Shown piece after piece: positions 13,828 through 18,584 of a stretch of DNA of 29,832 nt (the stretch's first letter is position 1; each line of letters begins with the position of its first letter). Source of the DNA: a virus; the IMG/VR virus record IMGVR_UViG_3300022920_000025, positions 1-29,832 of that record. The stretch is one strand, 5' to 3'. Below the pieces are notes generated by a model, which made no database searches, had not been told where the DNA came from, and saw only the letters and a program-made list of their open reading frames with translations. Made by a program: the position numbers and the translations under genes.

Positions 13828-14885
13828 GCAATCTCTGATGCCTGTGCTTCTGTTAACAAGTCACGCATCTTACCTTTCAGTCTATCTTTATCCAGTTCAG
13901 TATCAACACCATCAACATAACTATCAAGCAATTGTGTGGTATCTTCCACAGAGATTGCTTCATCATCAACAGCATCACCAAGAAACTCATTAAAGTTTTC
14001 TGCAATCTTTAATTCGTGAATTGGCCTATTCTGTATTCTATCAACAAACCGGTCAAAAGTAAATAGGTCTTCCTTATTAATTACAACTATTTTAACAAAT
14101 TTATTTTCTACTTGAGTTAGATCATAATCCATGTAGTCACGTTTAGAGTCATCATATACAATCTTATGATATAAACCATGTGGATTACGAATAGGTTCTA
14201 CTATTCTTGTTTCCGTATCGAGTATATGAAAATACTTAGGGTCGTGAGCATCACTCCAATTCATCTCTATTTGAGAACCAAGGTAGTGAATATTATCTTG
14301 ATTAGATTTAGTATGAAAATGTCCAGACATAACCATTTCAAATCTACTGAAAAGATTACGATCAAGACCATGATCACATTTAATACCTTTCATCATCTCA
14401 TAACCAATGATATCAAAGTGTCCACCAATAAAGTCTGCTTTACAGTTGGCAAGAAAGTCAAGTGATTGTTTCTCATTCTCTGCGCAGATCCATGGCACAA
14501 GACCCATCTTGAGAGAACCATATTCCATAACCTTAGGCTTGCTAATGATGTTTACTTCATTCATATAATGTCCTAGCAACTCTTTCAAGCTGTTTAGTTC
14601 ATTAGTATTCTTATAGAAAGTGTCGTGGTTACCACAGATAATATCCATAGTAATGCCATAATCTCTTAACGGTTTAAGAAAGTGTTGACGATTACGGTTA
14701 AGAGCACGGAAGTTGATAAACTTCCGGTTATCGTAATAATCACCAAGATGCACGATATGCTGAATACCATGTTCCAAAAGATAAGGAAAAAATACATCGC
14801 TGTAAAATTTCTCCGCATTATCGAGAAATATGTCAGAGCTATTGCGGATACCACAATGAGTGTCATTTATGATTGCTACCTTCAT
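13824..14885 (-). CDS. 47: recombination nuclease SbcD/Mre11-like subunit (gp47)
   Basis: The 353-aa product (T4: 339) has the calcineurin-like phosphoesterase motifs in order: INDTHCGIRN (D8/H10), HLGDYYDNR, CGNHD, GGHFD and SGHFHT. These bind two Mn ions and form the nuclease centre of the gp46/47 complex. The ATG overlaps the gp55 stop as ATGA, and the downstream gp46 overlaps it likewise, so 55-47-46 form a tightly coupled operon from the promoter at 15499-15527. Confidence 0.97.
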   Translation of the reverse strand: MKVAIINDTHCGIRNSSDIFLDNAEKFYSDVFFPYLLEHGIQHIVHLGDYYDNRKFINFRALNRNRQHFLKPLRDYGITMDIICGNHDTFYKNTNELNSLKELLGHYMNEVNIISKPKVMEYGSLKMGLVPWICAENEKQSLDFLANCKADFIGGHFDIIGYEMMKGIKCDHGLDRNLFSRFEMVMSGHFHTKSNQDNIHYLGSQIEMNWSDAHDPKYFHILDTETRIVEPIRNPHGLYHKIVYDDSKRDYMDYDLTQVENKFVKIVVINKEDLFTFDRFVDRIQNRPIHELKIAENFNEFLGDAVDDEAISVEDTTQLLDSYVDGVDTELDKDRLKGKMRDLLTEAQASEIA

Positions 14886-15475
14886 TCAATAAATCCACTC
14901 AAATCTGAGTCTACTTTGACCTCTCGCTTCTTGCGCTTTTCTTTTTTAACCAACTCCTTGACAGCTATGTCAGTATCTTTAACTTTATCAATACGATCCT
15001 TTAGCTGGTCCACAAAGTTAGAAGCTACGATATGCTGAAACTCTCCAACATCACCAACATTCATAAAGGCTTCTACGCCACTATTGGTTAGATACTTAAA
15101 TTTAATATCTTGTTGCTTTTTCTCTTTAGCAATGCGTCTTAGAAACGCATACCAACTAATCTGTGTAAAGTAAGCAAATGCATTAGGCTTACCTGTACGA
15201 GTAGCTGCCTCAAGGTTATAGTTCTCAATAGCTTTCAGACAATTCTCAACCGCATCCATTACCATTTCTTCGCGATATGTATAGCGAATAAAGTTTGACT
15301 TGTGAGACAAGCCTTCAGCGATCTTTAGAAAACACTGAGCAATATAGTCTGGTACAATAGGTAGGTTAATTTCGTCTGCTTTTGCTTTTTGAACAACAGT
15401 AACATATTCAACTACTGCAGCAGAGAAGTCTGCATTATTAACATAGTGAATGGATTTTCTTTTTGTTCTTGCCAT
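14882..15475 (-). CDS. 55: late-transcription sigma factor (gp55)
   Basis: The 197-aa product (T4: 185) has a sigma region 2-like block, REEMVMDAVENCLKAIENYN, followed by FAYFTQISWYAFLRRI, which binds core RNA polymerase and melts the TATAAATA late -10 box. The C-terminal DSDLSGFIE is short, acidic and hydrophobic, like the tail through which T4 gp55 contacts the gp45 clamp. The basic linker KKEKRKKREVK precedes it. The ATG has AAAGGA 7 nt upstream and a strong early promoter is directly upstream. It explains the TATAAATA boxes elsewhere in the window. Confidence 0.93.
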   Translation of the reverse strand: MARTKRKSIHYVNNADFSAAVVEYVTVVQKAKADEINLPIVPDYIAQCFLKIAEGLSHKSNFIRYTYREEMVMDAVENCLKAIENYNLEAATRTGKPNAFAYFTQISWYAFLRRIAKEKKQQDIKFKYLTNSGVEAFMNVGDVGEFQHIVASNFVDQLKDRIDKVKDTDIAVKELVKKEKRKKREVKVDSDLSGFIE

Positions 15476-15498
15476 GATATAGTCCTTTCAATATTTCC

Positions 15499-15527
15499 AT
15501 TATACTACATTTTAAAAAGGTTGTAAA
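15499..15527 (-). promoter_or_regulatory. early sigma70-type promoter for the 55-47-46 operon
   Basis: Minus-strand TTTACA (15527-15522), 17-nt spacer, TATAAT (15504-15499), about 24 nt before the gp55 ATG. Confidence 0.85.
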
Positions 15528-15561
15528 CAAGAAAATAATTAAAAATAATTCATTTTGGGGG

Positions 15562-15590
15562 TTTACAGATTGACGGATCTGTGTTATAAT
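15562..15590 (+). promoter_or_regulatory. plus-strand sigma70-type promoter with no plus-strand gene
   Basis: Plus-strand TTTACA (15562-15567), 17-nt spacer, TATAAT (15585-15590). It is back to back with the gp55 promoter, their -35 boxes about 35 nt apart. Transcription would run antisense into the 15625-16026 gene and uvsW. The preceding GGGGG plus TTTACAGA is identical to the gene 43 promoter. Only a four-codon frame follows, so a regulatory RNA is the likelier product. Confidence 0.65.
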
Positions 15591-15605
15591 AAGCTAACAG
15601 CTTTT
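15591..15605 (-). terminator. weak hairpin downstream of the uvsY-uvsW unit
   Basis: AAGCT-AAC... reads the same as a 5-bp stem on both strands (AAGCT/AGCTT, 5-nt inner spacing) and is flanked by T-rich sequence. A second dyad ACAGAT/ATCTGT lies at 15564-15581. The 149-nt gap at 15476-15624 holds these, two promoters and no gene. Confidence 0.3.
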
Positions 15606-15624
15606 AGGGGTAGATGGTATACAA

Positions 15625-16026
15625 CTAGTGCATTTTATCCTTTGGGAATTTTAAGACTTTTCCTAATACTTCATCGATACTATCCTCTGGTTCTAAATCA
15701 ATAGGTCCTTCAGTTGGCTCGTCTAATTGGTTTGCATTAAGAAAAAAGTCTACAGTCTCTTGCCAATTAGCTTCTGTCTCCATAGCTGGTTTGGCATCAG
15801 CAACAATATGATTAGCACTAAGAGTTTGAAAGAAATCATTCTGTACTTGTTGCAACATCCAAGGCCTCATAGTGCACATTCTGTAGGAATCTTTAACTAT
15901 ATATTGTATTTCTACAGCGTGTCTAACGACAATCAAATCAGTTTCTTCATCATTCCATTCAAGGATTTCACATATGATTTCTTCTCCAGTGGTTAGTTTA
16001 AACTGTCTTAAATAAGGTTCGCTCAT
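15625..16026 (-). CDS. small protein with Sm-like N-terminal domain, 133 aa
   Basis: The N-terminus (FKLTTGEEIICEILEWNDEE, then LIVVRHAVEIQYI) has the pattern of an Sm/Hfq beta-barrel: the L-x2-G-E-x-I-x-(A/C)-E-I Sm1 strand followed by an acidic turn and V-x-x-(P/A) strand. The C-terminal half is acidic and probably disordered, ending DEVLGKVLKFPKD. No family name can be assigned with certainty. The ATG overlaps the uvsW stop as ATGA, so it is co-translated with the helicase. An RNA-binding role is only inferred from the fold guess. Confidence 0.7.
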   Translation of the reverse strand: MSEPYLRQFKLTTGEEIICEILEWNDEETDLIVVRHAVEIQYIVKDSYRMCTMRPWMLQQVQNDFFQTLSANHIVADAKPAMETEANWQETVDFFLNANQLDEPTEGPIDLEPEDSIDEVLGKVLKFPKDKMH

Positions 16027-17537
16027 GTTTTTAACTCGATTTCGTAAATTTTATAGTTAAAGGATTCTTTTGCATATATCTTAATGCGTTCGGCACTGTG
16101 TACTAAAGTGTAATTCTTTCTTGCTTTCCAGTGTAGATCATCGGCAATATCATATAATGTGGTTGTTCTACCATCATCTGATTGTCTAAGCCCTCTGCCG
16201 ATAGATTGCAACACTTTAATTTGGGATTTACTAGGAGAAGCAAAAACAATATTATGAAGATTACGAATATTGATACCGGTACTAAAGGTACCCAAGCTCG
16301 CAACAATAATAGAATTTTTCTGTTTCTCAACAATTTTTCTTATAGCCTCTCTATCTGAAGTTTCTGTCTCACCACTTACAAAGAATACTTTTCTTCTTTC
16401 GTGTGCGGCATTTCTAATTAAATCAAATAATACTTTACCATGCTTATCAACTAACTGAAATAAAACTAATGTATTACCTTCTTGATCTATTGCTAAATTC
16501 TTAATTAAATTATTTCTTGCATCATTAGTTACAATATAATCTATTTCATCATGGTATTGCTTTTTACCAAATGCTTTTCGTACTTCATCTGGATATTTTA
16601 AAAGCATCACCTTAATATCTAAAGCTGCAAGGGTCTCATCATCTTGTAACTTTTTTGTGGTGGTTACATTATATATCTTACCAAAAAGACCTTCTAATAC
16701 AAGCTTGTGTGTTTGAGTACCATCTAAGGTACCAGTGGTGCCAAATCTATATGTTGCTTCCCTTGACTTATTCATAATTCCAGTCAGAGATTTAGACTTG
16801 AATCCATGAACCTCGTCTCCAAAGACTGTACCGAACTGCTCAAACCAAGCACCAGGCAATTTATAGACAGATTGCCATGTAGAGATAAACACACGTTGGC
16901 TCATATTCATCTTAGGTTTACCAGAATAAATTCTATGGCATTCAGTTTCAGGATTCCAACTATCGTCATACGCAGAGTAATCTTCAAAGTCAGCATACAT
17001 TTGTTGCACTAGACTTGTTGTTGGTACAATAATCAATACCTTTTTCTGAGTTCTTTCTAATAGATACCTCATAAGCAAATAGATGATAAGAGATTTACCA
17101 GAACCAGTAGGGCTCAACAAGATAGCACGCTTTCTATGGATACCTTCTAGTACAGCTTCCAACTGATAGTCTCTGGGCTTAATTTTTTTACCACGTGACG
17201 ATAGATTTAATTCTTCTACAAACTTTACAAACTCATCTATGTCAACATCAATAGTTGAACCAGGAATTCCATAGAATGCATCGTGATCAACTTCTACTGT
17301 ATACTGTCTAGGTCCTGCAAACTCTTGCAGATACGGAAACAAACCTACTGGCAGTTCACAGCTTTGAGCATTAAATAATCTTACCTTACCATCCCATACC
17401 CTATTCTTATATGCAGGCATAAATTTATATCCAGGGACAAAGAAGCTAAAAAAATCAGACAACTCATTTGATATACCCATATCAGTACCAACATGTAGTA
17501 CCGATTCATTCTTTTTCTTTACATAGATATTATCCAC
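16023..17537 (-). CDS. uvsW: RNA-DNA and branch-migration helicase UvsW
   Basis: The 504-aa product (T4: 503) has the N-terminal DNA-binding domain found in T4 UvsW (DFFSFFVPGYKF, WDGKVRLF), then SF2 helicase motifs: Walker A SPTGSGKS (142-149), motif II GDEVHGF (DEVH 241-244), TGTLDG (motif III), and SIGRGLRQ (motif VI). UvsW unwinds R-loops and recombination intermediates and helps switch T4 from origin- to recombination-dependent replication. No ATG fits; GTG at 17537 aligns with the T4 start and overlaps the UvsY stop by 8 nt. Confidence 0.96.
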   Translation of the reverse strand: MDNIYVKKKNESVLHVGTDMGISNELSDFFSFFVPGYKFMPAYKNRVWDGKVRLFNAQSCELPVGLFPYLQEFAGPRQYTVEVDHDAFYGIPGSTIDVDIDEFVKFVEELNLSSRGKKIKPRDYQLEAVLEGIHRKRAILLSPTGSGKSLIIYLLMRYLLERTQKKVLIIVPTTSLVQQMYADFEDYSAYDDSWNPETECHRIYSGKPKMNMSQRVFISTWQSVYKLPGAWFEQFGTVFGDEVHGFKSKSLTGIMNKSREATYRFGTTGTLDGTQTHKLVLEGLFGKIYNVTTTKKLQDDETLAALDIKVMLLKYPDEVRKAFGKKQYHDEIDYIVTNDARNNLIKNLAIDQEGNTLVLFQLVDKHGKVLFDLIRNAAHERRKVFFVSGETETSDREAIRKIVEKQKNSIIVASLGTFSTGINIRNLHNIVFASPSKSQIKVLQSIGRGLRQSDDGRTTTLYDIADDLHWKARKNYTLVHSAERIKIYAKESFNYKIYEIELKT

Positions 17538-18526: not shown

Positions 18527-18554
18527 AAAAAAAAGGGCCGTCCGAAGACAGCCC
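18527..18554 (-). terminator. strong intrinsic terminator of the gp23 unit (UUCG tetraloop)
   Basis: Minus-strand GGGCTGTC and GACGGCCC form an 8-bp stem (one U-G) closed by a TTCG loop and followed by eight T. This is the clearest terminator in the window. Confidence 0.95.
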
Positions 18555-18563
18555 AGTTTAGGT

Positions 18564-18584
18564 AGGAGAGGTTAACCCTCTCCT
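18564..18584 (-). terminator. second hairpin between gp23 and the main terminator
   Basis: AGGAGAGG and CCTCTCCT form a perfect 8-bp stem with a 5-nt loop, 12 nt after the gp23 stop. It lacks a T-tract, so it may protect the 3' end of the abundant capsid mRNA. Confidence 0.6.

Follow-up and report, generated by a model that had tools for sequence, protein, structure and literature searches.

Divergent and antisense promoters in phages and bacteria

In phage lambda, the small promoter pO is directed against the main transcript and gives rise to OOP, a defined short RNA that lies antisense to the preceding gene at its 3′ end; cross talk of pO/OOP with the sense promoter has been reported (PMC5869508, PMC3985674). 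Bacterial bidirectional promoters present another arrangement, in which a pseudo-symmetrical sequence accommodates polymerase in two orientations, such that divergent transcription issues from one short stretch (PMC12825309); the text of that account makes no mention of spacing, periodicity or phages. In T4, the origins oriF and oriG rely on MotA middle promoters and, downstream of these, an A+T-rich unwinding element, and the promoter RNA, made near uvsY/uvsW, could form an R-loop (PMC3016281). An antisense RNA has also been described in a T4-like cyanophage, namely CfrI of S-PM2, which the account cited in PMC5931967 places at psbA and not at gp55.

Here we consider the gp55 locus of a T4-like marine phage, represented by a 29,832-base IMG/VR virus record (hereafter, the window). 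Among annotated genomes, those of phage C48C1 and Prochlorococcus phage P-SSM3 come closest to it. Like pO, a small promoter at this locus is directed against the main transcript, in antisense orientation to the preceding gene’s 3′ end; unlike pO, it stands back to back and in helical phase with the sense promoter, the gene concerned encodes a sigma factor, and no terminator or structured RNA of the OOP kind was seen. As with bidirectional promoters, divergent transcription would arise from one short stretch, but here from separate -35/-10 sets at a spacing quantised by 10.45 bp. The window lacks the shared core of a pseudo-symmetrical promoter, and the two promoters overlap only in cyanophages, where one binding event should exclude the other (cf. 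PMC12825309). The promoter also resembles those of oriF and oriG in lying near uvsY/uvsW and in making an RNA that could form an R-loop, but neither MotA middle promoters nor a downstream A+T-rich unwinding element was seen at the gp55 site. Within the open literature, we found no account of a gp55 antisense promoter or of its phasing; an earlier mention elsewhere may exist.

A phage-type promoter stands back to back with the gp55 promoter

The leftward operon of the window runs uvsY, uvsW (16023–17537, minus strand; Pfam UvsW_N), the gene X for an Sm-like protein (15625–16026, minus strand), gp55, encoding the late sigma factor (14882–15475, minus strand; PHROG 234, E 3.6e-51, and tblastn), gp47, gp46 and the sliding clamp gene. 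C48C1 has the identical annotated order, which is largely kept in cyanophages, pelagiphage HTVC008M and Sinorhizobium phage phiM12. No tRNA was found. The first-pass annotation had described a 149-nt gap between X and gp55 (15476–15624) amid genes that all lie on the minus strand, and had placed in it a rightward promoter divergent from that of gp55; both descriptions are borne out, the latter by the window sequence and by strong conservation.

The rightward, or opposite, promoter (TTTACA-N17-TATAAT, 15562–15590, plus strand) comprises a -35 hexamer TTTACA at 15562–15567, a spacer of 17 bp and a -10 hexamer TATAAT at 15585–15590. It matches the E. coli consensus at 11/12 positions, carries TG ahead of the -10, and has an expected transcription start near 15597. 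Back to back with it lies the gp55 promoter (TTTACA-N17-TATAAT, 15499–15527, minus strand), such that 80 bp separate the two -10 hexamers and 34 bp the two -35 hexamers. In its hexamers, a spacing within 16–18 bp and its retention among relatives, the opposite promoter is of the sigma70 type, and its -35, TTTACA rather than TTGACA, is that of the window phage’s own promoters. The exact sequence TTTACA-N17-TATAAT occurs seven times in the window, six times on the minus strand and once, as the opposite promoter, on the plus strand; with up to two mismatches allowed, 26 matches are found where 10.7 are expected, a number that none of 100 shuffles reaches. On these sequence grounds we judge the rightward promoter to be a real, phage-type promoter as opposed to a chance match, and its very strong conservation supports the view that it is functional.

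The opposite promoter recurs among T4-like phages

Conservation of the gap in relatives, which the first-pass annotation had proposed as a check, was followed in gp55 loci gathered as 80 per query gp55 (window, HTVC008M, Syn19 and Melnitz-3) together with eight annotated phage records; removal of near-identical elements left 178 of 323 loci. The opposite promoter recurs far above shuffled expectation in four phage groups: at a threshold of at least 11/12, it lies upstream of gp55 in 50/56, 32/49, 19/32 and 18/36 non-redundant loci, where shuffled sequences would give 5.2, 3.8, 1.5 and 2.8, and the counts for groups C and D are lower bounds because the promoter thresholds miss some of their loci. 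A control scan farther off, within the upstream gene, returned 8/49 for the second group and none for the other three. A divergent sigma70-type promoter thus stands beside gp55 in T4-like cyanophages, pelagiphages, Methylophilales phages, C48C1 and phiM12, with Syn19, S-CAM3, ACG-2014a, P-SSM3 and HTVC008M among the individual phages that carry it. T4, a vibriophage and Stenotrophomonas phage Ps15, judged by layout, have another gp55 arrangement or nearly no gap.

The opposite promoter is dispensable in some phages, since a C48C1-like clade, represented by many contigs, has no intergenic space and is without it. Five C48C1-like loci that miss the usual gap (L378, L380, L382, L384 and L529) keep the gp55 promoter and lack the opposite one, and so constitute a natural deletion. 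In a further set (L042–L048, L064, L066, L085 and L088), X and gp55 are separated in some loci by a different gene of about 215–250 codons, and it is gp55 that the promoter pair accompanies. The -35 type (TTTACA, TGTACA or TTGACA) matches between both gp55-region promoters in most phages (L040–L119 and others); it is shared partly with further promoters in the same locus, as though entire phage lineages had switched type.

The facing -35 hexamers are spaced at whole helical turns

Across 121 non-redundant loci, the gap between the facing -35 hexamers clusters at 1–5, 14, 25, 35, 45 and 53–57 bp, and gaps of 6–10, 19–22, 28–31, 39–42 and 48–52 bp are absent. The best period for these gaps is 10.45 bp, at a Rayleigh R of 0.69; without the commonest gap class (33–36) R is 0.58, and a jitter null reaches a maximum R of 0.25. 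As a control, distances measured from the gp55 start codon to each of the two promoters give R = 0.11–0.15 at 10.45 bp. A fresh set, drawn with two further queries and confined to loci sharing few 12-mers with the first set, yielded 33 gaps that, at the period set in advance, give R = 0.83 (p < 5e-5, jitter) and a phase of 3.28, compared with about 3.3 in the first set; it retains one 31-bp gap (L454), apparently a chance match inside a gene.

Kinship does not account for this phasing, because the gp55 tree requires at least 48 changes of turn number, because R is 0.70 among 62 representatives (tree distance >0.3), and because sister phages differ mostly by near-whole turns or hardly at all. 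Among 42 sister pairs, gap differences are 0–3 bp in 20, 9–12 bp in 12 and 18–22 bp in seven, with 25, 29 and 53 bp in the other three, and no pair differs by 4–8 bp. Where the promoters overlap, in cyanophages, the gap takes one of two fixed values, -16 in 49 loci or -7 in 16 loci, with TTGACAnnnnTGTCAA as a typical sequence; the -7 class is in phase and the -16 class about 1.5 bp off phase. The gap is quantised, and is held in fresh loci and in sister phages, and the promoters are therefore evidently kept on one face of the helix: the gap lengths show the predicted opposite -35 to stay on the same face as the gp55-promoter -35 over 0 to 5 turns.

The DNA between the promoters

In the window, the A/T-rich DNA between the -35 hexamers spans 34 bp (15528–15561), and the length of this interval falls at whole helical turns among phages. 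Upstream of the opposite -35, the A/T tracts are concentrated at distances of about 7, 17 and 27 bp, with a phase coherence that 0/500 rotations match; on the gp55 side, tract phasing is weaker outside the 35-bp class. In an UP element, contacts by the polymerase alpha subunit would fall at such A/T-tract positions upstream of a -35.

Phasing of this kind could also arise if a phage or host regulator had sites at or between the -35 regions and needed both promoters on one face, with the polymerases themselves never touching. A bending or bridging protein would explain a phase held over 0–5 turns, the A/T tracts are phased, and from phage to phage the two promoters switch their -35 hexamers jointly. 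However, we found no sequence motif between the -35s that is conserved across groups, and the -35 type also changes, at least partly, in other promoters of the same loci; we consider such a regulator unlikely to be the explanation.

A TGCATTTTAGGGG-like sequence lies just upstream of the opposite -35 in nine loci (L041, L046, L050, L075, L077, L079, L099, L111 and L117). Its window counterpart, TCATTTTGGGGG at 15548–15561, may be part of an extra motif carried by many phages of the window’s group. A palindrome in the promoter spacer, ACAGAT-N6-ATCTGT, was rejected as a candidate feature: its arms are kept only in close relatives of the window, including L008, and spacer stems are near the shuffled level and no commoner than in gp55-promoter spacers.

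An inverted repeat and conserved sequence at the predicted start of transcription

Directly after the -10 hexamer of the opposite promoter begins an inverted repeat, AAGCT-AAC-AGCTT (15591–15603, plus strand), whose arms covary between phages; elsewhere it reads, for example, AACGG-TGT-CCGTT, AGACT-ATGT-AGTCT, AAACC-GTGTAGA-GGTTT or CAGGA-ATG-TCCTG. A stem of at least 4 bp exactly after the opposite -10 is present in 35% of 178 loci, compared with 0–10% at the slid positions tried. When arms were cross-paired between loci, own partners scored 63 against a mean of 24 and a maximum of 34 in 1000 permutations. The repeat belongs to one promoter of the pair, following the -10 in 43/121 loci at the opposite promoter and in 3/121 at the gp55 promoter. 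With the usual sigma70 spacing, transcription would start about 7 nt beyond the -10; the first base of the repeat lies 6 nt ahead of that point, so its first arm would fall outside the plus-strand RNA. A candidate pairing between the -10 flank and TATACC further downstream showed no covariation.

The repeat could instead act in the leftward operon RNA as a hairpin that terminates weakly or serves for processing, with the plus-strand promoter only part of the same sequence. Covarying arms would fit a hairpin, and AUUAUA follows on the minus strand. Yet the stems are of 4–5 bp and no run of U follows them, in contrast to the terminator-like site at 18554–18535; in a strand test, G-U asymmetry does not favor the minus strand (14 plus-type versus 7 minus-type); and an RNA hairpin requires neither the conserved -35 nor the conserved spacer length. 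Taken together, these points make an operon-RNA hairpin extremely improbable.

Beyond the repeat, the predicted transcribed region starts purine-rich, as AGGGGTAGATGG and then GTATAC (15606–15622, plus strand). This stretch is conserved in related phages, taking the form of a purine-rich stretch and then TATAC across the window’s group, and ends just ahead of the stop codon of the Sm-like gene. Such a start, with a G content of up to 0.60 in group A, is one reason to think of an R-loop replication origin, in which the plus-strand transcript would stay hybridised and prime replication like T4 oriF (PMC3016281), and for which uvsW, adjacent as is uvsY, would supply the R-loop helicase. Against this idea, G-richness is weak in groups B and D, the GC skew of C48C1 does not turn at the site, and, in place of the downstream A+T-rich unwinding element of T4, the downstream DNA starts purine-rich, and the most A/T-rich DNA lies upstream. 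An origin of this type strikes us as very unlikely.

The case for an RNA product

The first-pass annotation had proposed that transcription would run antisense to the Sm-like gene at its 3′ end, possibly yielding a trans-acting small RNA, with an Sm-like protein next door. The antisense geometry and the Sm-like neighbor both stand. AlphaFold2 models the neighbor at a mean pLDDT of 82, and its best PDB match is 3by7 (‘similar to Sm/LSM’; Foldseek E 2.7e-5, profile E 1e-6), which places it in the 3by7 Sm-like family by fold and by sequence relation; it also matches PHROG 471, and Pfam Sm_like at E 0.0017, below the cut-off. Among 40 homologues, E16, P80 and the C-terminal H133 are invariant.

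The proposal of a trans-acting small RNA fared less well. It is not supported, since RNA folding of 15596–15720 is no better than shuffles (z 0.03), Rfam returned no relevant match, and no plus-strand terminator-like site lies between 15600 and 18564; sequence conservation, moreover, extends only about 30 nt past the start, up to the neighboring gene’s stop codon. For want of such a site, a plus-strand transcript could in principle reach uvsW. RNAalifold gave no consensus structure for plus, minus or transcript-only alignments, the free alignments being poorly anchored. A conserved small plus-strand ORF was also considered and set aside: the phages differ in their ATG/GTG-stop combinations, and where start codons lie close to the stop of the Sm-like gene, they derive from that gene’s own last codons.

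There is nonetheless a version of the RNA idea in which a productive antisense transcript, short or long, covers the Sm-like 3′ end and upstream operon and represses them early, perhaps bound by the Sm-like protein. The promoter is strong, its antisense position and purine-rich 5′ end are conserved, the neighbor has an Sm-like fold, and lambda OOP over cII sets a precedent (PMC5869508, PMC3985674). Conservation that stops about 30 nt past the start, with no structure, terminator or Rfam family, argues against it, as does the persistence of the element in phages such as some of L042–L048, where a different gene adjoins gp55; nor would an RNA product need helical phasing with gp55. We regard a productive antisense RNA as rather doubtful. 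A short-lived or Sm-bound antisense RNA is compatible with these results, the Sm-like neighbor leaving room for an RNA role, but on the best reading such an RNA would be no more than a by-product, or would play a secondary regulatory part.

A proposed cis-acting promoter pair

Helical phasing and the start-site repeat, both missing from the first-pass annotation, point to a role at the level of the DNA. The reading we prefer, and to which we would give about an even chance on sequence evidence, is a cis-acting pair of back-to-back promoters: polymerase bound at the antisense member would modulate the promoter of gp55. Host RNA polymerase at the opposite promoter would act on its neighbor by one of two routes. 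The first runs through shared upstream contacts, whether by docking of alpha subunits on the phased A/T tracts or through curved DNA. The second would apply to cyanophages with overlapping promoters, where the first polymerase excludes the second, and the overlap itself favors exclusion there; the same physical contact could hardly operate both in that overlap and at a 5-turn spacing. A possible role for the start-site repeat and the purine-rich start, no more than a guess, is to delay promoter escape and hold the polymerase at the opposite promoter. The outcome would be control over the timing of gp55, and hence of late gene expression.

The effect on the gp55 promoter may be positive or negative, and the partners may be polymerases or a bridging protein; the phasing would fit each of these. 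More specifically, and as a tentative possibility, a poised polymerase at the antisense promoter could serve as a cis activator or brake of the gp55 promoter through phased DNA contacts, thereby timing the early-to-late switch. It is gp55 that sets the late-transcription switch, and T4-like phages are abundant in the sea. If the poised-polymerase reading holds, coupling of polymerases across whole turns would time the late switch in many T4-like marine phages. Whole-turn spacing, maintained through at least 48 changes of turn number, is evolutionary evidence for mutual influence, on one face of the DNA, between divergently bound polymerases, or proteins at them. The pair thus offers a testable case of promoter–promoter coupling and of late-phase timing control, which is little understood in cyanophages and pelagiphages.

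Two smaller observations concern the surrounding region. Cyanophage records label the PHROG 471 protein ‘methylamine utilization’; the protein is related to the Sm-like structure 3by7, and this annotation in phage records looks unhelpful. Terminator-like sites lie back to back on both strands at 18535–18584, GGGCTGTCTTCGGACGGCCC followed by T8 on the minus strand and AGGAGAGGTTAACCCTCTCCT on the plus strand.
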